This document shows, piece by piece, positions 22,967 to 35,450 of a stretch of DNA of 64,000 bases (its first letter is position 1; each line of letters begins with the position of its first letter). Both the position numbers and the translations under genes were made by a program. The notes below the pieces were generated by a model. It was given only the letters and a program-made list of their open reading frames with translations. It made no database searches and was not told the DNA's origin. Source of the stretch: Pirellulaceae bacterium (GTDB lineage: Bacteria; Planctomycetota; Planctomycetia; Pirellulales; Pirellulaceae); contig BPJV01000005.1 of assembly GCA_026004795.1 (NCBI GenBank), positions 186,001 through 250,000 on the forward strand, written 5' to 3'.

Positions 22967-24238
22967 ATGCCAAGTTTTGTCCATGCTGCAGACCTGCATT
23001 TGGATAGCCCGTTGAGGGGGTTGGAGCGCCATGAGGGGGCTCCCGTTGCGGATATCCAGATCGCTACGCGTCGTGCGTTGGAGAACCTTGTGGAGTTGGC
23101 CATCGATCGGCGGGTCGACGCCGTCGTGTTGGCTGGCGACTTGTACGACGGCAATTGGGACGACTACCACACGGGGCTTTTTTTTACTCATCAGATGGGG
23201 CGGCTGCGCGAAGCAGATATTCCGGTGGTTGCCATCGCTGGCAACCACGATGCGATCAGCAAGATGACGCGTTCGCTACCTTTGCCCGACAATTTTCAAT
23301 TGCTCGGACACCAACAAGCGGAAACGGCATCCTTGCCGAAACTGCGTCGAGCCGGTTTGGCCATTCACGGGCGTTCCTTTGGCAAGCAAGCGGAACGGGA
23401 ACGGATAGTGGTCGAGTACCCGCCTGCAGTACCGGGGATGTTCAACATTGGTCTGCTCCATACCTCGCTCAGCGGCAGCGAAGGCCATGACCCTTATGCC
23501 CCCTGCACGATCGAGGATTTGCATGCCAAGCAATACGATTATTGGGCGCTGGGACATGTTCACCAGCGGCAAATCGTCTCTCGCGACCCGTGGGTGATAT
23601 ACAGTGGGAATACTCAGGGGCGGCATATTCGCGAAACGGGAGAAAAGGGATGCTATGTGGTGGAGGTCCATGCCGATGGCAGCGTTCATCCCACCTTTCA
23701 TGCGTTGGACGTGGTCCGTTGGGTACATTGCCAGGTGGACGCTGGCAGCTACGAGCGGCCAGAGGATGTGCTCGAGGATGTGGAGTCCAGGATTTGCGAA
23801 TTGTTGCCGCGCCATGAAGGGCGTTTGATGGCGCTGCGCGTCGAGGTGGGGGGGCCGTGTCGATTCCACGAGCGGTACGCGGCCGCGCGCACGCACTGGG
23901 ACCATCAGGTGCGGGGGTTGGCCGCCGGTCTGGCCCCGGGGCGGTTGTGGATTGAAAAGGTTCGCTGGACCACACGGCCGTGGCGAGAGCAGGATTGGGG
24001 TGGCGATGGCGATGGGCCAATTGCCGAATTGCTGCATGTCTTCCGCGAGGTGCAAGGGGATGAGGCGACGTTGCGCGAGTTGCGCACGGAGTTGCATGCG
24101 TTGAAACGGAGGTTGCCCCCGGAGGCGATGGGGGATGCCGACGGAATTCGGCTCGACGATTTGCACTGGTTGCGCACCATGCTGGGCGAAGTGGAGCCGA
24201 TGCTGGTGGGGCGCCTGCAGGGAGGAGTGGGGCAGTGA
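22967..24238 (+). CDS. SbcD/YhaO-like metallophosphoesterase (DNA repair exonuclease)
   Basis: The 423-residue calcineurin-like nuclease has the full Mre11/SbcD metal motif series: HAADLHLD (D9, H11), VVLAGDLYDG, IAGNHDA, IGLLHTSL and GHVHQRQ. It begins like YhaO (DLHLDSPLRGLERH). The C-terminal 180 residues form the capping and partner-binding part. GGAGG lies upstream of the ATG. It overlaps the ATPase gene by four bases (GTGA), so the two products are probably made in fixed ratio and form an SbcCD/Mre11-Rad50-like complex acting on DNA ends. Confidence 0.88.
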   Translation: MPSFVHAADLHLDSPLRGLERHEGAPVADIQIATRRALENLVELAIDRRVDAVVLAGDLYDGNWDDYHTGLFFTHQMGRLREADIPVVAIAGNHDAISKMTRSLPLPDNFQLLGHQQAETASLPKLRRAGLAIHGRSFGKQAERERIVVEYPPAVPGMFNIGLLHTSLSGSEGHDPYAPCTIEDLHAKQYDYWALGHVHQRQIVSRDPWVIYSGNTQGRHIRETGEKGCYVVEVHADGSVHPTFHALDVVRWVHCQVDAGSYERPEDVLEDVESRICELLPRHEGRLMALRVEVGGPCRFHERYAAARTHWDHQVRGLAAGLAPGRLWIEKVRWTTRPWREQDWGGDGDGPIAELLHVFREVQGDEATLRELRTELHALKRRLPPEAMGDADGIRLDDLHWLRTMLGEVEPMLVGRLQGGVGQ

Positions 24239-27200
24239 GAATCTCACGTCTGGAATTGTTGCGATACGGTCCTTTTGACAATCAAGTGCTCGAATTCGCG
24301 GATGACGGTCGCGGATTGCATTGTGTCTTTGGACCGAATGAGGCGGGGAAGAGTTCTGCCCTGGCCGCGGTGATCGATTTCCTGTTCGGCTTCGAGCGCC
24401 AGACACGAGCCAACTTTCGCTATGGCAATTCCGAATTGCGGATTGGGGCAGAGGTCGTGTGGGAGGATGGGCGGCGACTGCGCGCGGTGCGTCGCAAGGG
24501 GATCAAGCACACGTTGCTCGACCCGGAGAGCGGCAAGCCCCTGGATCCGCGATGGTTGCGCGAAAGCCTGGCCGGTCTGAGCCCCGAGGTTTTTCGGCGC
24601 CGCATGGGGATCGATTACGACATCGTCCGCGAGGGGCGTGTGCAGGTGCAGGCAGGAAAGGGGGAACTGGGGGAGGCGCTGTTTGCGGCCGGCAGCGGGT
24701 TGACCAACCTCCTGCGATTGCGGCAGGATCTGCAGCAGGAGATGGACGAGCTATTCAAGCCGTCGGGGACCAAGCCCGCACTGAATGCTGCCATTGCCGA
24801 ATACAAGAAGTTGCGAGAAGAACAGGCTGCCGCCTCCTTGCCCACCGACCGATGGGCAAGCAGCAAACGGGCGTTGGACGAGGTGCAGCGACGCCTCGAT
24901 GCGGCGCGTGCTGCAGTCAGAGAGCTGGACGCGGCCAGGCAACATTGGCAGCGCGCGGTGGATGCATTGCCGCTAGTCCGCCGACGTGATGAACTGATCG
25001 ATCGCCTGGCTGCAGTGAAGCACGTGCCCTTGTTGGACGGTCATTTTTCCGAGCGACGCCGGGAAGCGATCAGTCGCCGCTTGTTGGCCGAATCGCAGCT
25101 GCAGGAGGCCGCCGAGCGGCTCGACAAGTTGCGGGCCGAGCTCGAGCAGATCGCCGTGCCTAACAAACTGATGGCGCACGCAGAGGAGATCCGCGAACTT
25201 TCCCAAGAGCTAGGGGCCTATCGTCAGGCAGTGCAGCAGCGGACCCCTGTCCGCGACCGGTTGGAAGTCCTCGAACAGGAAATCGCCGGCTTGTGGCAGC
25301 AGTGGCAGCAGTTCAACAGGGGAGAATCTGCCGAGCCGCAGTGCGTTACCAGAGCCCAGCGCGAGCGCATCGCGGAGCTGGCCGAGCTGCGCACGCGCTA
25401 TGTTGCCGAATACCAACAGATCCAACAATCGGTCGATCGATTGCGAACTGAGGCTTGCGCGAGGAAAAACGCTCTCGATGCGCTTCCTTCCCCCCCGGAT
25501 ACCGGCGAGCTCGTGCGGCGGATCAATGCCGCTCGGCAACTGGGAGATGTGGAGGTACGACTCGACAGTTTGCGCAGCAAGTTGGCGCACCTGGAACAAC
25601 AGGCCGCAACGGAGTCGAGAAAGTTGCAGTTGAAGGACGCGACGCTTGATCGGCTAGCCGTGTTGCCGATCCCCGATGAGTCCATCGTGGAACGGTTTGA
25701 GCAGAGTTTGGAACGGTTGCAGCTGCAACGGACCCAGCTCCAGCAGCAGTGCACGGAGCTGGAGAAGAGGATCGCGGTTCGAGAAAGCGAACTCAGTACG
25801 TTGCAGGGCCAGGATGCATTGCCCACGGTGGCGGATTTGCAATCGGCGCGGCAGCATCGCGATGCGCTGTGGAAGCAGATTCTGCTCGTCAACCACCGCG
25901 AGGAGTCATTCGCCGAGGACGGGCCGGTCGACGGCGAGCCGACGGAGGACTGGACGAAGCTCGGGCAACAGTTCGAACGGGCGATGGCCCAGGCCGATGA
26001 AATCGCCGACCGGTTGTGGCGGGAGGCCGGCAAGGTGGCCGAGCGGGCAGGGCAGATTGCGGAGCTGGCCGGTTGGCGTACCGAACTAAGTAAGCTGCAC
26101 GAGGAACAGTGTCGATTGGATGCCGAGCTGCGTGTGGAAACCGAGCGGTGGCGCAGGCACTGGCAAGCCGCCGGTATTGAGCCCCGGGAGCCACGGGGCA
26201 TGCGGACCTGGCTGAGAAGGTATCACGAAGTGCTCATCAAGCTCGACCAGATTCAGGAGGTGCGCGCAGAGATCACCGCCGGGCAGCAGCGTATTGAGCA
26301 GACGCGAGAGCTCTTGGCTGCCGCCCTCCAAAACGTGGGACAGACGCTGGACGAAGCCGCAGGTCTGCGGGGGTGGGTCGAGCAAGCGGAGGCGGTGGCC
26401 GAGCATCTGGAGGAACAACGCCAGCAGCGACGGGCCGGCGAGACGGAATGGCGACGTGTCGAGAAGGATCTGGAGCGAGAGCAACGAAGATTGCAGCACG
26501 CCCAATCGCAACTCGATGCATGGGAGACTCAATGGCGGTCCGCCGTGGAGTCGCTGAACCTCTCCCCCGATCTCTCTCCCGCCGAGGCGCAGGCGGTGCT
26601 GGAAACGATTCGCGAGTTGGATCAACGCCAGCAGGCGACGGCAGAGTTGCGGCGCCAGTTGCAGCGCAACGAGGAGGTTTACCAGCGTTTTCAACGGGTG
26701 CTTGCAGCACTGCTTCAGAACATGGGTGAGCAAGCTGGGGGCAACGCGGCGGATACTCTGGTCATCCAGTTGCGTTCGCGTTTGGACGAGGCTGAGAGAC
26801 TCGTCGTCAAACGCGATGAATTGCAAAAGCGAATCGCCGAACAAGAGCGGATCCAGGAGCAGGCCAGAGCCGCATGGTTGCAGGCGGAGACGGAACTGCA
26901 TGCGCTGTGTGAGGAAGCAGGGTGTGATCGCCCGGAAGAACTTCCCGCAGTCGAGCAGCAGTCGCAGACACGGAAGGAGTTGGCCACCGAGTTGCGGTTG
27001 GTCGAGCAGCGATTGCACGAACTGGCCGGAGGGGGCCCGCTCGAGGAGTTGGTGGCGGACGTGCGGCCCATGAATGCCGAGGAGGCTCGCCGCCAATTGC
27101 AGCAGGTCGCCGAGCAGCTGGAGCGAGAGCGTCAGGAATGCGATACCTTGCATGTTCAACTGGGGAAGCTTCAGGAGGTGTTGAAGGCTTGGGATGGAAG

Positions 27201-27771
27201 CGCCGATGGGGCGCGGGCCGCCGCCGAGGCGGAGATGGTGTTGGCGAGAATCAAGGAACACGCCGCCCAATGGGTCCGCTTGAAATTGGCGACGTCTCTG
27301 CTACAGCGAGGCATCCAGCGGTACCGCGAGCAGAACCAAGGCGCGCTGCTCGAACGCGCCAGCCGCCTGTTTCAGCAGCTCACCTTAGGTTCGTTCGAGC
27401 ATCTTGATGTTGATTACGAGTCATCCCCCCAGCCTGTATTGGTCGGTGTACGGCCCAGCGGAAGGCGGGTAGGTGTTGAGGGGATGAGTGAAGGGACTTG
27501 TGACCAACTCTATCTCGCTCTGCGTTTGGCGGCCATGGAAACGTATTTGGAGGAGCATCCTCCGTTGCCGCTGATTGTCGACGACGTTTTGGTCATGTTC
27601 GACGATCGACGAGCGGAGGTGGCCTTGGAGATCCTCGCCCGCATCGCTCGACGCACGCAAGTGATCTACTTTACCCACCATGAGCACTTGATCGATATCG
27701 CCCGCAGCAAGTTGAAGGATGAGCAGTGGCACGAATTGCGGCTGACCGAAACTGCTGCCGTGGCGCAGTAA
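24235..27771 (+). CDS. YhaN-like SMC/Rad50-type ATPase
   Basis: This 1,178-residue ABC-type ATPase has its halves at the two ends and about 900 residues of coiled coil between. Walker A is GPNEAGKSS (residues 33-41). The C-terminal signature region is GMSEGTCDQLYLALRLAAM, followed by Walker B LPLIVDDVLVMFDD and a switch histidine in YFTHHEHL. I found no CxxC zinc-hook motif in the coiled coil, which places it with YhaN rather than SbcC or Rad50. It starts with GTG overlapping the stop of the nuclease gene. It is the predicted partner of that nuclease. Confidence 0.88.
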   Translation: MRISRLELLRYGPFDNQVLEFADDGRGLHCVFGPNEAGKSSALAAVIDFLFGFERQTRANFRYGNSELRIGAEVVWEDGRRLRAVRRKGIKHTLLDPESGKPLDPRWLRESLAGLSPEVFRRRMGIDYDIVREGRVQVQAGKGELGEALFAAGSGLTNLLRLRQDLQQEMDELFKPSGTKPALNAAIAEYKKLREEQAAASLPTDRWASSKRALDEVQRRLDAARAAVRELDAARQHWQRAVDALPLVRRRDELIDRLAAVKHVPLLDGHFSERRREAISRRLLAESQLQEAAERLDKLRAELEQIAVPNKLMAHAEEIRELSQELGAYRQAVQQRTPVRDRLEVLEQEIAGLWQQWQQFNRGESAEPQCVTRAQRERIAELAELRTRYVAEYQQIQQSVDRLRTEACARKNALDALPSPPDTGELVRRINAARQLGDVEVRLDSLRSKLAHLEQQAATESRKLQLKDATLDRLAVLPIPDESIVERFEQSLERLQLQRTQLQQQCTELEKRIAVRESELSTLQGQDALPTVADLQSARQHRDALWKQILLVNHREESFAEDGPVDGEPTEDWTKLGQQFERAMAQADEIADRLWREAGKVAERAGQIAELAGWRTELSKLHEEQCRLDAELRVETERWRRHWQAAGIEPREPRGMRTWLRRYHEVLIKLDQIQEVRAEITAGQQRIEQTRELLAAALQNVGQTLDEAAGLRGWVEQAEAVAEHLEEQRQQRRAGETEWRRVEKDLEREQRRLQHAQSQLDAWETQWRSAVESLNLSPDLSPAEAQAVLETIRELDQRQQATAELRRQLQRNEEVYQRFQRVLAALLQNMGEQAGGNAADTLVIQLRSRLDEAERLVVKRDELQKRIAEQERIQEQARAAWLQAETELHALCEEAGCDRPEELPAVEQQSQTRKELATELRLVEQRLHELAGGGPLEELVADVRPMNAEEARRQLQQVAEQLERERQECDTLHVQLGKLQEVLKAWDGSADGARAAAEAEMVLARIKEHAAQWVRLKLATSLLQRGIQRYREQNQGALLERASRLFQQLTLGSFEHLDVDYESSPQPVLVGVRPSGRRVGVEGMSEGTCDQLYLALRLAAMETYLEEHPPLPLIVDDVLVMFDDRRAEVALEILARIARRTQVIYFTHHEHLIDIARSKLKDEQWHELRLTETAAVAQ

Positions 27772-28018
27772 CCGGACGCTGGCCGGTGCCCTCCGCCGGC
27801 TCGTCGTCGCCATCGAGTCCGTTGGGGAAGGTGGGCTGGGAGGGGTAGTGGAGCCTTGATTGTCGGCTAGGGAAGAGGGGGAGTTGTGGGTGGTCGGTGG
27901 CCGGAATTGGCTCATAATAGAGGAGATGAGCAAACGGTCAGGCGACGCGGCATCGTGGAACCTGGCGCAGGGAGTGTCCTCCCCGCCCACCTAGGCAATT
28001 CGACAAGGCGATTTAGTG

Positions 28019-28984
28019 ATGGAAGTAATACTGGCGGCTCCACGCGGATTCTGTGCTGGGGTCCACATGGCGGTAAAGAGTCTCGAATTGGCTCTGCAAC
28101 GGTTTGGGGCACCCGTGTATGTTTACCACGAAATAGTGCACAACCGTCATGTGGTGGACCAGTTCACCCACCAAGGGGCGATCTTTGTCGACGATCTTCA
28201 GCAGGTGCCCGCCGGAGCCACCGTGTTGTTTTCGGCCCACGGCGTTGCGCCGGAGGTGCGTCAGGCGGCCAAGGAACGAAATCTAACGGCTATCGACGCC
28301 ACTTGTCCGTTGGTGACCAAGGTGCATCTCGAAGCGGTACGATTTGCCAAGGCGGGTTATACGATCCTTCTCATCGGCCATGCTGGTCATGACGAAGTGG
28401 TAGGGACGATGGGGGAAGCGCCCGAGGCCATCGTGCTGGTGGAGACCGCCGAGGATGTCGATCGATTGAATTTCTCCGCCGATACGAAGTTGGCCTATTT
28501 GACGCAGACGACCCTGAGTGTCGATGACGCCAACCGCATCATCGACCGCTTGCGGCAGCGATTTCCGTGGATCGAAGGGCCGCCGAAGGAGGACATCTGC
28601 TATGCCACGCAGAATCGTCAAGAAGCGGTCCGTTTGCTCAGCCAACGGGCGGATGTCGTCTTGGTCGTTGGGAGTCAAAACAGCAGCAACAGTCAACGGT
28701 TGCGCGAGTTGGCGGCCGAACGTGGCAAGAACGCCTACTTGATCGATGGACCTCAAGATATCGATCCCGCTTGGTTTACGCCCGATAGTCGAGTCCTGGT
28801 GACGGCTGGGGCCAGCGCGCCGGAGACGCTCGTTGCCGCGGTGGTGCAGTGGTTGCAGGAGCGGTACCAAGCGCGGGTGAGCGCTGAAACGGTGCGCGAG
28901 GAAAAAGTGGTCTTTCCGTTGCCACGTCCGCTGCGGGATGCAGCGAAGGACCCTGCAGTAGCCTCCTCCCCGGCGGCGAGCTGA
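28019..28984 (+). CDS. ispH: 4-hydroxy-3-methylbut-2-enyl diphosphate reductase
   Basis: This is the last enzyme of the MEP isoprenoid pathway, reducing HMBPP to IPP and DMAPP with a [4Fe-4S] cluster. The three ligand cysteines are visible in PRGFCAGV (C12), DATCPLV and DICYATQNR. The substrate-binding histidine and TQTTLS motifs (YHEIVHN, GHAGHDE, LTQTTLS) are intact, as is [11 protein letters not shown] near the end. It has 321 residues, normal length. ATG 28019 is preferred to the GTG one codon upstream. It is cytoplasmic and the first of a possible ispH-pyrB-pyrC run. Confidence 0.95.
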
Positions 28985-29066
28985 TGTCCTAGAATGGCCC
29001 CACAACGCCCGGCAAGAGCGTCCGTTGCCGGTTGTTGCTGAAATCGCGTGGTACCGGGGCAGGAGC

Positions 29067-30044
29067 ATGGTGGAGCTCGAGGGAAGACTGAGGGAACTGG
29101 CGGCCGCTTGGCGGTGTCGGCATTTGTTGGATCTGGAGAGCCTAGAGGCCAACGAGCTGACTACGCTACTGGAAGCGGCCGATTTGTTTGCCGAGCATTT
29201 TCGACGCCGGCGAGGCAAGCTGTCGCTGCTGGCCGGTCGCACCGTCGCCAACCTTTTTTTCGAAAACAGTACGCGGACGCGGAATAGTTTTTCTTTAGCG
29301 GCCAAGCGACTGGGGGCCGATACCATCGAATTCTCCTCGGCCGGTTCGTCGGTGGCCAAAGGAGAAACCTTCATCGATACGGCGAAAACCATCGAAGCGA
29401 TGGGGGTCGACGCCGTCGTCACGCGTCACTCGACGCCGGGCACCTCGCATCTGCTGGCCCGACATCTCCAGTGCAGCGTGTTGAATGCCGGAGATGGGCC
29501 GCACGAGCATCCCACCCAAGGGCTGCTGGATATTCTCACCATCCGCCAGCAGCGTGGACGCATTGAAGGGTTGACGGTTGCCTTGGTGGGCGATATCGCC
29601 CATTCGCGCACGGCGCGCAGCAACATATGGGGGCTCAAGAAGTTAGGGGCTCACGTGATCGTCTGTGGGCCGCGAACGTTGGTCTCCCCTCAATGGGCCG
29701 AGTTGGGGGTGGAGGTGGCCTACAACCTGGACGAAATCTTGCCGCGCTGCGATGTGCTGAATCTGCTGCGTATTCAGTTCGAGCGGCAAGCGACGAGGCC
29801 TTTTCCCTCGGTGCGCGAGTATGCCCTGCTTTATGCCATGAACGCCGACCGCATTGCACGCAGCAAGCCGGACATCTTGATCATGGCCCCGGGGCCCATC
29901 AATCGCGGCGTGGAGATTACTCCGGACGTGGCCGACGGTCCCCACTCGGTCATTCTCCAACAAGTAAGCAACGGCATCGCCGTGCGCATGGCCGCTCTGT
30001 GGCTCCTGTTACACAGCACTCGCGCCGACGATTGGGTGACCTAG
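29067..30044 (+). CDS. pyrB: Aspartate carbamoyltransferase catalytic chain
   Basis: This enzyme catalyses carbamoyl phosphate plus aspartate to carbamoyl aspartate in pyrimidine synthesis. The carbamoyl-phosphate motif FFENSTRTR, the mobile loop lysine in [28 protein letters not shown] and [12 protein letters not shown] are all present, so it should be catalytic. It has 325 residues from ATG 29067. AGGAG sits only one base before that ATG, so GTG 29070 may be the real start. The next gene begins 28 bases downstream. No pyrI regulatory subunit is in the window. Association with the dead dihydroorotase homologue next door is likely by analogy to Pseudomonas. Confidence 0.93.
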
Positions 30045-30072: not shown

Positions 30073-31389
30073 ATGCAGCATGAGCGATGGTTGATTGAGC
30101 ATGGGCGGTTGGTGTCCCCGGCCGATGGCTTGGATCGTCCGGGGCGACTGTTGCTCGTCGACGGCAGGATCGCTGCCATCGATCCTGCCGATGGAGACTT
30201 GCCACCGGATGTCGCGCGTGTCGATGCGTCGGGGTGTTATGTGATCCCTGGATTGGTCGATATCGGCGCGGAGCTTGGTGAGCCAGGGCGGGAGGAGGAC
30301 GAAACGATCGAGACGGGGACGGCGGCGGCATTGGCCGGTGGATACACGTCCCTGGCGTGTGCCGCTAGCACCGATCCGCCGATCGACACCCCGGCTGGGG
30401 TCGAGTTCGTGCGGCAGAAGGCCGCTCGTGCCGACGGTTGCCGGGTATACGTCATCGGCTGCGTGAGCAAGGGACGGCAGGGGGACGAGTTGGCGGAGAT
30501 CGGAGGGCTGGTCGAGGCGGGGGCCGTGGCATTGAGCGATGCCCCCAAGCCATTGCATAACACGGCCTTGTTGCGACGTGCCCTCGAGTACTGCGCCATG
30601 TTTGATCGGCCGGTCCTCGACATGCCAGAAGTGCCCAGCCTGACGCGTGGCGGCGTGATGCATGAGGGGCTGACCCAACTGGTGCTCGCCTTGGCCCCGA
30701 TGCCTGCTGAAGCCGAGGATTTGGCCACTTCTCGCGACTTACGCCTATTGGAAACGACGGGCGGACGTTTGCACCTGACCAGTATTTCCACCAGCGGCGG
30801 GGTCGAATTGGTGCGTCGTGCTAAGGCACGGCACTCGCCCGTTACCGTCGGGGTGCATATCGCCAACCTCTGTTTTTGCGACCAGCAGATGCGCACGTTC
30901 GACTCGAGTTTGAAAGTCAATCCGCCGCTGCGCAGCCCAGAGCACATCGAAGCGTGTTTGGAGGCGGTCGCTGACGGCACCATCGATGTCATCGCCAGTG
31001 GCCATCAGCCACGATCGCTGGAGAAAAAAATGCAGGAATTGGATGCGGTGCCCTTTGGCATGACGACTCTGGATACCGCATTGGCTCAAGCCCACACCTA
31101 CTTGGTGCGGACTGGCAAGCTCGATTTCGCCCGTCTCGTGCAGTGCATGGCCACTGGGCCGGCACGTGTTCTCGATTTGCCAGCCGGCCGTCTAGCGCCG
31201 CAAGTGCCAGGCGACGTGGTGATTTTCGATCCACAGGCTCGGTGGACGGTCACCCCACAGACGATGGGTTCACGTAGTCGCAATACGCCGCTGCTCAATC
31301 AAGAGCTGGTAGGGCGAGTTCGTGATGTGTGGGTCGGTGGGCGCAGAAAAAAACCGCTTGACGACAGGACGTCGCCAAGCGGCAATTAG
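30073..31389 (+). CDS. Non-catalytic dihydroorotase homologue (pseudo-DHOase)
   Basis: The 438-residue protein aligns with type I dihydroorotase along its whole length (PGLVDI...GTAAALAGGYTS, DVICD-like region, EKKMQELDAVPFGM). However, every catalytic motif is changed. The metal pair and substrate Arg of DxHVHLREPG become DIGAELGEPG. The substrate Asn of MPNTxP is lost (AASTDP). The HAE metal motif reads DMPEV. HxxHVST reads HLTSIST. The DHAPH acid reads GHQPR. It should bind no zinc. Inactive DHOases that stabilise ATCase are known in Pseudomonas (PyrC'). The frame itself is intact, so it appears to be under selection as a structural subunit. Confidence 0.85.
   Translation: MQHERWLIEHGRLVSPADGLDRPGRLLLVDGRIAAIDPADGDLPPDVARVDASGCYVIPGLVDIGAELGEPGREEDETIETGTAAALAGGYTSLACAASTDPPIDTPAGVEFVRQKAARADGCRVYVIGCVSKGRQGDELAEIGGLVEAGAVALSDAPKPLHNTALLRRALEYCAMFDRPVLDMPEVPSLTRGGVMHEGLTQLVLALAPMPAEAEDLATSRDLRLLETTGGRLHLTSISTSGGVELVRRAKARHSPVTVGVHIANLCFCDQQMRTFDSSLKVNPPLRSPEHIEACLEAVADGTIDVIASGHQPRSLEKKMQELDAVPFGMTTLDTALAQAHTYLVRTGKLDFARLVQCMATGPARVLDLPAGRLAPQVPGDVVIFDPQARWTVTPQTMGSRSRNTPLLNQELVGRVRDVWVGGRRKKPLDDRTSPSGN
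31347..31382 (-). terminator. Candidate minus-strand intrinsic terminator
   Basis: Read on the minus strand, CCGCTTG (31382-31376) pairs with CAAGCGG (31360-31354), with further inner GACG/CGTC complementarity. Seven T residues (31353-31347) follow immediately. On the plus strand no T-run follows. It lies within the last codons of the dihydroorotase homologue. Confidence 0.45.
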
Positions 31390-31769: not shown

Positions 31770-32786
31770 ATGTCAGGAGTGTGCGAAAGGAATGAGACGG
31801 CCGACGGTTTGAATGCCGCCGCGTGGAGGCTTGCTCAACATGCGATCGATCGTGCTGCAGCGCTAAACGCCGCTGTCCATCGCCTGGGCAACGGCGCGAC
31901 GTTGATCGACTGTGGGGTGCAAGCGCCCGGTAGTTTGGCGGCCGGGCTCGTCCTCGCCCGATTATGCCTGGCCGGGCAGGCGGAGGTGCAATTGGTTAAC
32001 GGTGATCGAACTGTTTGGCCGGGGCCATGGATTGAAGTGCGGACCGATGCGCCGGTCCGATCGTGCATGCTCAGCCAATATGCGGGGTGGCCGATTGAGA
32101 CGCCAGACGGCCAGTTCTTTGGCATGGGATCGGGGCCCATGCGCGTGCGGCGAGGAAAAGAGGAATTGCTTCGGGAATTGGGCGCAGAGGACCAAAGCTC
32201 TTGTGCTGTGGGCGTGGTGGAAGCGGACCAGTTGCCCGATGAGGCCCTCGTCGATCGCATGGCGAAAGAATGTGGAGTGGAGAGCGAACAGTTGATCCTA
32301 GCGGTGGCTCCCACGCGAAGCATCGCGGGGGTTGTGCAGGTGGTGGCCCGTTCCGTGGAGACTTGTTTGCATAAGCTGCATGTGTTGGGAGGGGACCTGA
32401 AGCAAGTAGTGGCCGGTTGGGGGCTAGCCCCTTTGGCGCCGCCGACCCCCGATCTCGTCGCTGGAATTGGCCGAACCAACGACGCCATTCTTTTTGCCGG
32501 ACAAGTGACGTTGTGGGTCCATGGAGATGATGCGCCGTGGGAGCAGTTGGTGGGGTTGCTACCAAGCGCGGCGTCTGGTGATTTCGGAGTTCCTTTCGCC
32601 GAGGTCTTTCGCAAGTACGACCTGGACTTCTACCGGATCGACCCCCACTTGTTTGCTCCCGCCGAAGTGATGGTGATCAATGGGCGTTCCGGCTCCAGTT
32701 GGCATGCTGGGAAGGTGCATCGAGAGCTGCTACGACGGTCGTTCGATTGGCGCGAATCCGACCTGGGGCGGGGAGGCGAGGGGTGA
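31770..32786 (+). CDS. mch: Methenyltetrahydromethanopterin cyclohydrolase
   Basis: This enzyme converts methenyl-H4MPT to formyl-H4MPT in the archaeal-type C1 pathway also found in methylotrophs and planctomycetes. Family signatures are clear: ATLIDCGVQAPGSLAAGL near the N-terminus, MLSQYAGWPI followed by FFGMGSGPMRV, IGRTNDAILFAGQVTL, and the C-terminal SGDFGVPFAEVFRKYDLDFYRIDP with LFAPAEV. It has 338 residues from ATG 31770, which has GGGGAG nine bases upstream. It is cytoplasmic. The stop overlaps the next start as GTGA, so translation is coupled to the ATP-grasp gene. No other H4MPT gene is certain in this window. Confidence 0.93.
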   Translation: MSGVCERNETADGLNAAAWRLAQHAIDRAAALNAAVHRLGNGATLIDCGVQAPGSLAAGLVLARLCLAGQAEVQLVNGDRTVWPGPWIEVRTDAPVRSCMLSQYAGWPIETPDGQFFGMGSGPMRVRRGKEELLRELGAEDQSSCAVGVVEADQLPDEALVDRMAKECGVESEQLILAVAPTRSIAGVVQVVARSVETCLHKLHVLGGDLKQVVAGWGLAPLAPPTPDLVAGIGRTNDAILFAGQVTLWVHGDDAPWEQLVGLLPSAASGDFGVPFAEVFRKYDLDFYRIDPHLFAPAEVMVINGRSGSSWHAGKVHRELLRRSFDWRESDLGRGGEG

Positions 32787-33727
32787 GTGTGATAGCAGGA
32801 GGGACACCTCGGGCCGGCATGCGTCTGGGAATCGTGGGGACGGCCGGCACGTATTACGTACGTCGCCTGTTGGAAGCGGGGGCGAGTGTGTTGGGGCCCG
32901 AGGCGGTGGCCGTAGTCGACTATGGTGAGTTGGCTTGTGGCATTGGTCGAGACGGGGAATTCTTATCGCCTCAGCGGCGGTTCGACGCCTTGATCGTCCG
33001 TTCCATGCCGCTGGGATCGTTGGAGCAGGTCATCTTTCGTATGAATTGCTTGCACGGTTTGCAACGGGCCGGCGTCGTGGTGCTCAACGCTCCCCGATGT
33101 TTGGAGATCGCCATCGACAAATGGTTGACCCTCGATCGGCTGCGCGAGGGGGGGATGCTGGTTCCGCCAAGCCGGGTAGTTCAGCATCGCCAAGCGGCCA
33201 TGCAAGCTTGGGAGGAGCTCGGAGGCGATGTGGTCGTCAAACCGTTGTTTGGAGGAGAGGGGAGGGGACTGCTACGTCTGCAGGATGCCGATATGGCCTG
33301 GCGCGCTTTCGGAACACTACAACAACTACGTGCGGTCCTTTATGTTCAGCAGTTCATTCCTCACTTGGGGTATGATGTACGAGTTCTCGTCCTGGGGGAT
33401 CGCACGTGGGCCATTCGGCGACAGGCGGCAGAAGGGCAGTGGCGCACCAATATCTCCCAAGGAGGGGCAGCGATGCGGGCCGAGCTAGGGGGAGGCGAAC
33501 TGGAGATTGCCTCCCGCTGCATGCGCCTCGTGGGGGGAGAGTTTCTCGGGGTCGATTTGTTGCCCGATCGGGACGGGCGTCTCTGGCTGTTGGAGGTGAA
33601 TGCCGTTCCTGGTTGGCGCGGTGTCGAATCGGCTTGGGGCGTGGACATCGCTCGCGCGGTAGTCGAACATGCCATTGCACAAGTAAAGGATTCTGTGGAT
33701 GAACGATCCGGCACGAAGATTGGCTGA
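32783..33727 (+). CDS. ATP-grasp ligase (RimK/H4MPT-associated OrfY-like)
   Basis: This 314-residue ATP-grasp protein has the nucleotide-binding segments VVVKPLFGGEGRGL and YVQQFIPH, and the metal/ATP site GVDLLPDRDGRLWLLEVNAVPGW. An N-terminal Rossmann-like start (MRLGIVGTAGTYYVRRLLE) precedes them. RimK-type alpha-L-glutamate ligases catalyse glutamylation of proteins or cofactors. An ATP-grasp gene (orfY) beside mch is a known companion in H4MPT-using bacteria, which suggests a role in cofactor modification. GTG 32783 is chosen because it overlaps the mch stop and follows GGGGAGG; ATG 32819 is the alternative. Confidence 0.82.
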   Translation: MSVIAGGTPRAGMRLGIVGTAGTYYVRRLLEAGASVLGPEAVAVVDYGELACGIGRDGEFLSPQRRFDALIVRSMPLGSLEQVIFRMNCLHGLQRAGVVVLNAPRCLEIAIDKWLTLDRLREGGMLVPPSRVVQHRQAAMQAWEELGGDVVVKPLFGGEGRGLLRLQDADMAWRAFGTLQQLRAVLYVQQFIPHLGYDVRVLVLGDRTWAIRRQAAEGQWRTNISQGGAAMRAELGGGELEIASRCMRLVGGEFLGVDLLPDRDGRLWLLEVNAVPGWRGVESAWGVDIARAVVEHAIAQVKDSVDERSGTKIG

Positions 33728-35450
33728 CCAGGCCGATGGTGAATTGTCTGCCAATGTCGCTAGTCGGTTGACCACCATGGCTTCGCAGATGCCCTCGGCG
33801 GCGGCGATTGCTGTGCCCGTTGGTCGGTACAAGGCGTCGCGTCCGCGGGACTATACGGTGATGAGCTTTGCCGATCTGGAACTGGCCAGTTCTTCCATCG
33901 CTGCGGGGCTGCAGCAGATGGGGATTGAGCCGGGTATGCGCATCGTGTTGTTGGTGCGTTTTGGTGCGGAGTTCATTACCTTGGTGTTCGCGTTGATGAA
34001 AGTCGGGGCGATCATTGTGTTGGTGGATCCGGGGATGGGGCGAAAGAACCTGATCCGTTGTTTGGAGGAAGCGCGGCCCGACGGATTCATCGGCATTCCC
34101 CTGGCGCATGTGGTGAGAATGGCCACACGGCACCGATTTCCCCAGGCGCGTTTCAATGTTACCGTGGGACGTCGTTACGGATTCCTGCCCCATCCGACGT
34201 TGGAGCAACTAAGTGGCACTCCCTCGGGAATGTATTGTCCACCACAGGTGGAATTGGATACCCCGGCGGCGATCATCTTTACCACGGGAAGCACCGGACC
34301 GCCGAAAGGTGTCCTGTACACGCATCGCACGTTTCATGGGCAAGTGGACGCAATCCAGCAGCATTACGGGATCGAGCCAGGGGGTGTCGATCTGTCAGGG
34401 TTCCCTCTTTTCGGCCTGTTCAACGCGGTAATGGGGACCACCACCGTGATTCCCGATATGGATCCCACTCGGCCGGCCGACGTGGATCCGCCGCGGATTC
34501 TGGATGCGATCGACCAGTGGCAAGTCGACCAGGCATTCGGATCACCGGCATTGTGGACGCGAGTCGGTAGGTATGCGCAAGAGGTGCAACGCACGGTACC
34601 TAGCTTGCGGCGAGTTTTCTCCGCCGGTGCTCCTGTCCCTCCCCAGGTGCTGCGGTGGGTACGGAGGATGATGCCCGAGGACGGGCAGATGTTTACCCCA
34701 TATGGAGCGACCGAAGCCCTGCCGGTGGCCTCGATCGAATCACGAGAAGTGCTCGAGCAAACGGCCTCGCTTGCTGAGCAGGGGGCTGGCACTTGCGTGG
34801 GGCGCAAATTCGACGGTATCCAGTGGAAGGTGATCGCCATCGATGATGGCCCTCTGCAGGATATCTCTCAGGTGCGCGAACTGGGGGTGGGAGAGATCGG
34901 GGAGCTAATGGTCCGAGGGGAGGTGGTCACCCAGCAATATGTCACCCGCTGCGACCAGAATGCTCTGCACAAGGTCGCCGATGGGGATCAGATGTGGCAT
35001 CGGATGGGGGACGTCGGCTACTTGGATGACCAGGGGAGGTTTTGGTGTTGTGGGCGGAAGAGCCAGCGTGTGCAGACCGCCGCGGGGACGCTGTTTACCG
35101 AACAGGTGGAAGCCGTGTTCAATAATCATCCGCGGGTGCATCGCACGGCGCTGGTGGGGACCGGATCACCTCCGCAGCAACGTCCTGTCCTGGTGATTGA
35201 AACTTGGCCCGAGCATCGTCCGCGGGATGACGAGCAGTTGAAGAAATTGATTGCCGAACTGAGGCAGTTGGGTTTGGGCTATCAACACACCAGATCGGTG
35301 GAGCAGATATTGCTCTACCCAGATCGGTTGCCCACGGACATTCGTCACAACTCGAAGATCTTTCGTGAGCAGCTTGCTCAGTGGGTGATGCGGCGGGCCG
35401 TCTCCCCATCGCTTCGGGGAAGTTGGCCTCGACGACTCTTCGGCCGCTGA
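33699..35450 (+). CDS. OleC-like AMP-dependent synthetase/ligase
   Basis: This 583-residue ANL-superfamily adenylating enzyme has the AMP-binding P-loop IIFTTGSTGPPKGVLYTH, the motif MFTPYGATEALPV, MWHRMGDVGYLDDQGRFWCCGRKS, and the C-terminal LPTDIRHNSKIFREQL. The HNSKIFRE ending and overall match resemble OleC, the beta-lactone synthetase of long-chain olefin biosynthesis; fatty acyl-AMP ligases are the close alternative. No oleA, oleB or oleD is nearby. ATG 33699 overlaps the ATP-grasp gene by 29 bases, implying one operon with mch. That link is unexplained, so the substrate should be treated as unknown. Confidence 0.8.
   Translation: MNDPARRLADQADGELSANVASRLTTMASQMPSAAAIAVPVGRYKASRPRDYTVMSFADLELASSSIAAGLQQMGIEPGMRIVLLVRFGAEFITLVFALMKVGAIIVLVDPGMGRKNLIRCLEEARPDGFIGIPLAHVVRMATRHRFPQARFNVTVGRRYGFLPHPTLEQLSGTPSGMYCPPQVELDTPAAIIFTTGSTGPPKGVLYTHRTFHGQVDAIQQHYGIEPGGVDLSGFPLFGLFNAVMGTTTVIPDMDPTRPADVDPPRILDAIDQWQVDQAFGSPALWTRVGRYAQEVQRTVPSLRRVFSAGAPVPPQVLRWVRRMMPEDGQMFTPYGATEALPVASIESREVLEQTASLAEQGAGTCVGRKFDGIQWKVIAIDDGPLQDISQVRELGVGEIGELMVRGEVVTQQYVTRCDQNALHKVADGDQMWHRMGDVGYLDDQGRFWCCGRKSQRVQTAAGTLFTEQVEAVFNNHPRVHRTALVGTGSPPQQRPVLVIETWPEHRPRDDEQLKKLIAELRQLGLGYQHTRSVEQILLYPDRLPTDIRHNSKIFREQLAQWVMRRAVSPSLRGSWPRRLFGR

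Follow-up and report, generated by a model that had tools for sequence, protein, structure and literature searches.

Beside pyrB in a Pirellulaceae bacterium lies a gene for a dihydroorotase (DHOase) homologue whose catalytic motifs have all been replaced. This locus raises the question of what such a protein would do next to aspartate carbamoyltransferase (ATCase), and of how its active site came to be lost. The kind of protein is already known, and inactive DHOase subunits are well described (available portions of PMC4581275, PMC6022934 and PMC2770081); the interesting part is the repeated, replacement-linked origin to which our comparisons point. In the titles and abstract openings of the literature matches listed, with subscription papers mostly outside the scope, we found no report of an inactive DHOase in Planctomycetota or of its link with a second DHOase. 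Among the same matches we found no earlier report of a repeated, replacement-linked origin of a dead DHOase.

A full-length dihydroorotase homologue directly follows pyrB

We analyzed a window of 64,000 nucleotides in which ispH (28016-28984) is followed by the ATCase gene (29067-30044) and then by the open reading frame (ORF) at 30073-31389. This ORF starts with ATG and encodes 438 amino acids on the plus strand without a stop, 28 bases downstream of the end of pyrB at 30044. The pyrB product matches the ATCase models NF002032 (376 bits; cut-off 263) and TIGR00670 (305 bits), and its nearest PDB relatives are ATCases. The ORF product passed the DHOase family model TIGR00857, barely (281.0 bits; cut-off 279.05). 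Its best profile model was the dihydroorotase model NF006845 (E = 1e-101; 340.7 bits against a cut-off of 728), and its scores with the DHOase equivalog models shown were far under their cut-offs. A preliminary description of this DNA, made from the letters alone, had noted an intact reading frame for a DHOase homologue beside pyrB, and both points hold. A full-length DHOase homologue adjoining pyrB is one feature of the PyrC' proteins of class A2 ATCases. The features of the locus are as follows.

29067..30044, plus strand: pyrB, aspartate carbamoyltransferase catalytic chain (NF002032, TIGR00670); a longer TTG start is possible at 29025
30073..31389, plus strand: PyrC'-like DHOase homologue without catalytic residues (ORF, family matches, AlphaFold model, PDB matches)
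30265..30279, plus strand: HxHxR site erased, residues 65-69 being G-A-E-L-G (Aquifex H61, H63, R65; alignment)
30367..30369, plus strand: asparagine of MPNT (Aquifex N95) replaced by Ser99 (alignment)
30541..30543, plus strand: metal ligand D153 replaced by Ala157 (alignment)
30622..30624, plus strand: H180 replaced by Met184, in DMPEV (alignment)
30781..30783, plus strand: H232 of HVST replaced by Ser237, in SIST (alignment)
31000..31014, plus strand: DHAPH changed to GHQPR, with catalytic D305 replaced by Gly310 and H309 by Arg314, the middle His being retained (alignment)

Further out, the window encodes a 1178-residue SMC-like protein with an AAA_27 domain upstream of ispH (24235-27771). 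Downstream, at 31770-35450, lie genes for methenyl-H4MPT cyclohydrolase (MCH), a RimK-like ATP-grasp protein and an AMP-binding enzyme. MCH is part of the archaeal-type C1 pathway known in planctomycetes.

All nine catalytic positions are replaced on a predicted dihydroorotase fold

When the ORF product was aligned to the Aquifex DHOase, 9/9 catalytic positions were substituted (HHRNDHHDH to GEGSAMSGR). At Aquifex H61, H63, R65, N95, D153, H180, H232, D305 and H309, the window protein has G, E, G, S, A, M, S, G and R. R65, N95 and H309 are likewise catalytic positions. H61, H63, D153, H180, H232 and D305 are ligand or near-ligand residues according to the accessible text of PMC3880350. Every motif change in the preliminary description reappeared in the alignment (DIGAELGEPG, DMPEV, SIST, SGHQPR, and ACAAST replacing MPNT), and the loss of D153 and H309, which that description did not include, is added here. 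The protein lacks the metal site and the catalytic Asp of a catalytic dihydroorotase (TIGR00857, EC 3.5.2.3). Its zinc ligands and substrate residues are unconserved, with 0/9 positions kept, which is a second feature of PyrC' in class A2.

The closest relative, 81% identical, carries an equally erased pattern (GDGSSMSGR), and each of the 14 same-genus copies examined, counting the window copy and two fragments, has lost at least five positions. Sequencing error is therefore unlikely, and we rejected error or chance as the source of the erased site. The earlier suggestion that close relatives might keep the metal ligands finds no support within the genus, where 14/14 copies are degraded. Several other families of the same order retain all nine catalytic positions.

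Modeling of the protein had been proposed, and a single-chain AlphaFold model (mean pLDDT 85.7, pTM 0.89) predicts an intact DHOase fold, with residues 316-327 and the C-terminus poorly modeled. The top PDB matches of the model are 4bjh_A and 3d6n_A, both Aquifex DHOase complexed with ATCase (TM 0.88 on the query). The DHOase of this complex is the nearest solved structure to the window protein by sequence as well as by predicted fold.

The genome encodes a second, conventional dihydroorotase

The preliminary description predicted a second, active pyrC elsewhere in the genome, and a further DHOase gene with intact motifs is present. The sole other gene over the TIGR00857 cut-off lies on contig C9 (160224-161522), and its product scores 647-651 bits (650.6) with NF005751/PRK07575 'dihydroorotase' (cut-off 529). 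It carries the motifs DDQVHFREPG, EMPNT, KIFIGSSTGD, AHCED, HVST and ATDHAPH; HxH begins with Gln in place of His, a trait shared by the further over-cut-off PRK07575 members read. Among solved structures, its nearest relative is 2gwn, a Porphyromonas gingivalis entry deposited as DHOase (putative). A second conventional DHOase in the genome is a further feature of the PyrC'/class A2 arrangement.

Five genomes (G257, G058, G233, G116 and G040) have a PRK07575 gene over the cut-off, no strong pyrB-type copy and no TIGR00856 match. Since the PRK07575 gene appears to be the best DHOase candidate seen in these genomes, the PRK07575-type enzyme is likely functional.

Active-site loss accompanies a second dihydroorotase across the phylum

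We searched 40 close genomes and 234 phylum genomes and fetched pyrB-type copies from the matches. For the 217 phylum genomes with a pyrB-type match, all 140 listed matches of at least 228 bits were fetched, together with one of about 190 bits (G248). This gave 173 aligned copies, of which 171 were counted, G248 (allantoinase-like) and G089 (lysine-type DHOase) having been dropped before the count. Copies that had lost at least two of the nine positions were called degraded, and those with at most one change were called intact.

Degraded copies made up 68 of the 171, and another DHOase was present in the genome for 67 of these 68. The remaining 103 copies were intact (100 with no change, three with one), and another DHOase was found in 0/103. 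In the even phylum draw alone, another DHOase was present for 43/43 degraded copies; as a warning for annotation, these are 43 of the 139 pyrB-type 'dihydroorotase' copies in that draw. Where a second DHOase is present, D153 is kept in 2/67 genomes and H232 in 4/67; where none was found, retention at every position is 102 or 103 of 103-104. The lone exception, G001, has a degraded copy and no second DHOase in its assembly, an 86% complete draft of 890 contigs. Across the phylum, then, loss of the active site was observed almost exclusively in genomes carrying a separate, working-looking DHOase copy, and the erased copy therefore probably persists as a structural partner.

All 104 genomes without a second DHOase (the 103 and G001) were searched with NF005751, and 87 of them also with TIGR00857 and TIGR00856. 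Among the 103 intact-copy genomes, 86 were searched with all three models and the other 17 with NF005751 only, each of the 17 giving one NF005751 match at E <= 1e-30. The extra families were searched after the exceptions had been seen, and the same searches were applied to 85 intact genomes. These 85 genomes yielded 18 further TIGR00857 proteins. The 17 that were scanned proved to be 16 dihydropyrimidinases and one allantoinase, all over cut-off, and the 18th (G143) was assessed from its motif only; we therefore rejected the second TIGR00857 matches in intact genomes as DHOases. TIGR00856 gave weak matches in intact genomes (at most 43.5 bits, within the genome's own DHOase gene) or none at E <= 1e-20.

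The second DHOase belongs to one of three or more kinds, among them PRK07575, a TIGR00857-like protein that has no name, and TIGR00856. The second DHOase is of the PRK07575 type in 51 genomes; in G004 this gene is split across two contigs and hence falls below the cut-off. The unnamed kind occurs in 13 genomes (L258-L270: G191, G087, G136, G125, G145, seven g34 genomes and G219). Its proteins score about 242-256 bits, under the TIGR00857 cut-off, with the motifs HxHAR, MPNN, YMGPSxG, FHxEDP and ATDHAPH, and the three of the 13 scanned against NCBIfam were under the cut-offs of other DHOase models too. This protein seems to be the working DHOase of its 13 genomes. The E. coli-type TIGR00856 enzyme is the second DHOase of two genomes, G024 (443.8 bits, over cut-off) and G088, where it lies in two contig pieces (214.5 and 133.1 bits, each below the TIGR00856 cut-off). 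The second DHOase of G266 is of an HVHFRDP type (L277).

The simpler rule that presence of PRK07575 equals degradation proved insufficient, given that 20/105 copies without PRK07575 had fewer than nine residues. Another kind of DHOase is present in 16 of those 20 genomes (the 13 with the unnamed kind, G024, G088 and G266). The other four are G001, which is unexplained; G204, with one change of nine and counted as intact; and the dropped G248 and G089.

Degraded copies mostly share a locus with pyrB

PyrB was encoded in the same fetched locus for 59/66 degraded copies and for 38/86 intact copies. For the other 7/66 degraded copies, PyrB was missing from the stretch that was fetched, which in some cases stopped at a contig edge. 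The evidence tying the degraded copies structurally to PyrB is thus indirect. Six close genomes (G014, G015, G019, G022, G030 and G035) are without the PyrC copy and also without this PyrB type, G014 being only 73% complete and G022 7% contaminated and in 780 contigs; the other 12 close genomes searched have both. G015 encodes an ATCase of another type in a 522-residue frame (L076; TIGR00670 259 bits, over cut-off).

The 12 intact copies counted in families f20 and f72 lie mostly away from pyrB, with no PyrB-like ORF in the fetched flanks except in G202. The f20/f72 genomes with PRK07575 (G040, G064, G109 and G156, all of one genus, and G233) have no strong pyrB-type copy. In those five genomes the old DHOase gene seems to have been lost rather than kept as a shell, a contrast that is thin.

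The pyrB-linked copy of G253 (L127) is extremely diverged (228-232 bits, on a long branch), and its PyrB is diverged too. The pair may represent late-stage decay or fast evolution.

Losses center on the pocket of a gene under purifying selection

Forty-two columns are at least 97% conserved in intact copies, and 24 of them are still at least 90% conserved in degraded copies. Nine fall below 50% (H63, D153, G154, H180, H232, E255, D305, A307 and H309); seven of the nine are tracked positions or adjacent to them, the others being E255 and A307. This pattern indicates that the losses are aimed at the pocket. Five pairs of closely related degraded copies, in which dS was unsaturated, had dN/dS of about 0.05-0.12, and the window copy and its nearest relative gave pN 0.135 and pS 0.701 (dS was saturated in the window's own pairs). 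These values indicate purifying selection on degraded copies. The dN/dS of the DHOase-like gene exceeded that of pyrB in 5/5 close degraded pairs, and the constraint on it is therefore weaker than on PyrB.

In the genus together with G024 (13 copies), G69, P158 and G310 are present in 13/13, E67 and Q312 in 12/13, Arg184 (Met in the window) in 10/13 and Arg/Lys314 in 11/13. Such recurrent replacements could mean that the pocket has been rebuilt as an effector site, for a nucleotide for example, and that the protein is a regulatory ATCase subunit rather than a plain scaffold; class A2 enzymes are inhibited by nucleotides (available part of PMC7053772). However, the replaced residues are unlike between the two degraded clades compared, and positions 61, 153 and 309 drift within the genus, lying in the least conserved tenth of columns across the 13 copies. 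In P. aeruginosa, moreover, nucleotides are argued to destabilize the dodecamer and not to be allosteric effectors (same part of PMC7053772). A new conserved pocket among the replaced residues is only partly supported by the alignment, and we regard a rebuilt effector site as improbable.

Less probable again is catalytic activity, as a DHOase or as a different hydrolase, in the absence of the usual metal ligands. Lost ligands are no proof of inactivity, because a Pseudomonas DHOase (PyrC) paralogue lacking the conserved zinc ligands is reported to have DHOase activity (PMC2770081, in the portion available, citing Brichta 2004), and Gly69, Pro158, Gly310 and Gln312 are fixed or nearly so in the 13 copies above. 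In the window protein, however, the catalytic Asp, the metal ligands and the substrate Arg and Asn are all gone, three of the nine positions drift as just described, and 67 of the 68 degraded copies are accompanied by a conventional second DHOase. We take the window protein to be probably inactive in catalysis. A decaying, functionless pseudogene translated by accident was rejected as scarcely credible: although site loss accompanies a redundant DHOase, the frame is open beside pyrB in many genera and free of stops in the window copy, dN/dS shows purifying selection, and most of the invariant columns are kept.

The active site was probably lost several times

We built a PyrC tree with the nine catalytic columns left out. 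On this tree, the fewest changes were 6 for the degraded state and 7 for the second-DHOase state, and 6/6 independent pairs were concordant (P = 0.031). The result was 6/6 without G266 (P = 0.031), 5/5 without G266 and G253 (P = 0.0625), and 4/4 on starred branches without G266 and G001 (P = 0.125). A PyrB tree of 97 rows gave 8 and 9 changes with 5/5 pairs on starred branches (P = 0.0625), or 7 and 8 changes with 4/4 pairs (P = 0.125) when G266 was removed. No discordant pair appeared in any PyrC or PyrB tree run, and independent events were few; the sign test is fragile and depends on single rows.

A wider FastTree combined planctomycete copies with six copies from Proteobacteria and 79 named rows spanning many phyla. 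In this tree the degraded copies made up eight clades: six of planctomycetes, a proteobacterial one that takes in G266, and a verrucomicrobial one. The placement of long branches such as G253 is unsure. The planctomycete degraded clades sit among intact planctomycete copies. In this tree, which contains no Pseudomonas sequence, a seven-row proteobacterial-type clade (support 99) is separate from the 33-row clade (support 97) that holds the window copy. The preliminary description left a choice between an independent and a shared example, and these separate clades point to independence from the proteobacterial case; a shared origin with proteobacterial PyrC' is unsupported. A plasmid search returned Acinetobacter and alphaproteobacterial copies, with no Pseudomonas PyrC' among the 30 of 41 matches listed.

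Among the named loci (best 80 of 565 found), 70/80 keep 9/9 positions. Degraded copies there include a Rhodopirellula MAG (L293), strain K23_9 (L292) and a Gimesia MAG (L308), and a Thermogutta MAG copy (L295) is intact. As intact copies are present in many phyla, the intact state is likely ancestral.

The degraded copy of G266 (L201, CRRDAYQHL) groups with proteobacterial PyrC' (Acinetobacter CRRDAYLHL) and may therefore be a contaminant or transferred. The verrucomicrobial pyrB-linked copies L338 (HHRNGHQAH) and L354 (NRGDTHHDC) are degraded too and form their own clade.

A probable structural subunit left behind by a replaced enzyme

Building on what was observed directly (the erased site, predicted fold, purifying selection, pyrB linkage, second DHOase and phylum-wide association), we consider it highly likely that the window protein serves ATCase as a structural, catalytically inert subunit of the PyrC' kind (class A2), which arose repeatedly, and separately from the proteobacterial case, once a second DHOase had taken over catalysis. 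The structural role is suggested by two precedents, each taken from the accessible part of its source. The pDHO of P. aeruginosa lacks activity, but ATCase needs it in order to be active (PMC7053772), and disrupting the pyrB-adjacent copy in S. meliloti leads to pyrimidine auxotrophy (PMC5929573). By analogy with Pseudomonas and Sinorhizobium, the window protein would contact PyrB physically, as in 3d6n, and PyrB would depend on it. In a class A2 enzyme the two chains would form a dodecamer, for which the linkage with pyrB and the joint absence of both genes offer indirect support.

We propose an ancestral DHOase that was active and paired with PyrB in an ATCase-DHOase complex of the Aquifex kind (class A1), in a lineage that would also have had a second, free-standing DHOase (the PRK07575 family member on contig C9). 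The pocket of the copy beside pyrB would then no longer have been under selection, and its metal and substrate residues would have been lost. The chain itself would have persisted owing to a continuing need of PyrB for it in assembly, stability or control (class A2). We infer that the second DHOase came first and decay followed.

With moderate confidence, we extend this reading to the phylum. In Planctomycetota, the presence of a second DHOase, whatever its descent, would in every case turn an ATCase-bound DHOase into a dead structural subunit. This would have happened about 5-7 times and with at least three kinds of substitute, and DHOases untied to pyrB would tend to be deleted outright. If so, class A2 ATCases would not be peculiar to Pseudomonas but would be the outcome to expect of class A1 complexes whose catalysis has become redundant. 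Living species would then offer graded intermediates (7/9 down to 0/9 residues) for study. These would form a natural series from enzyme to indispensable pseudoenzyme, with the same gene and partner, several independent losses, intermediates and a likely trigger in the redundant enzyme. The proposal also offers an explanation, open to test, of the inactive DHOase long known from ATCases.

Comparison with known systems

The window protein resembles the pseudo-DHOase domain of fungal URA2/CAD-like proteins, which, as described in the available text of PMC7053772, has the fold without zinc ligands or substrate residues and lies next to ATCase. This likeness is by description only, and the fungal domain, unlike the window protein, is part of a fused multidomain protein. 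A counterpart in arrangement is PyrC'/pDHO of Pseudomonas (class A2), an inactive DHOase homologue beside pyrB with a separate DHOase elsewhere (available portions of PMC7053772 and PMC2770081). The two nevertheless appear to differ in origin, as six proteobacterial copies (Acinetobacter, Sinorhizobium and others) cluster apart from the degraded planctomycete clades in a tree without Pseudomonas itself. PyrX (smc01361) of Sinorhizobium meliloti is likewise pyrB-adjacent and proposed to be inactive, with an essential PyrC elsewhere (accessible part of PMC5929573), but it belongs to the proteobacterial lineage and has other replaced residues (RFGDGEESQ in a Sinorhizobium relative). By sequence and fold, the closest solved system is the Aquifex aeolicus DHOase-ATCase reactor complex (class A1; 3d6n, 4bjh). 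The Aquifex DHOase is active in that complex with H61, H63, D153 and D305, whereas the window copy has lost all of them.
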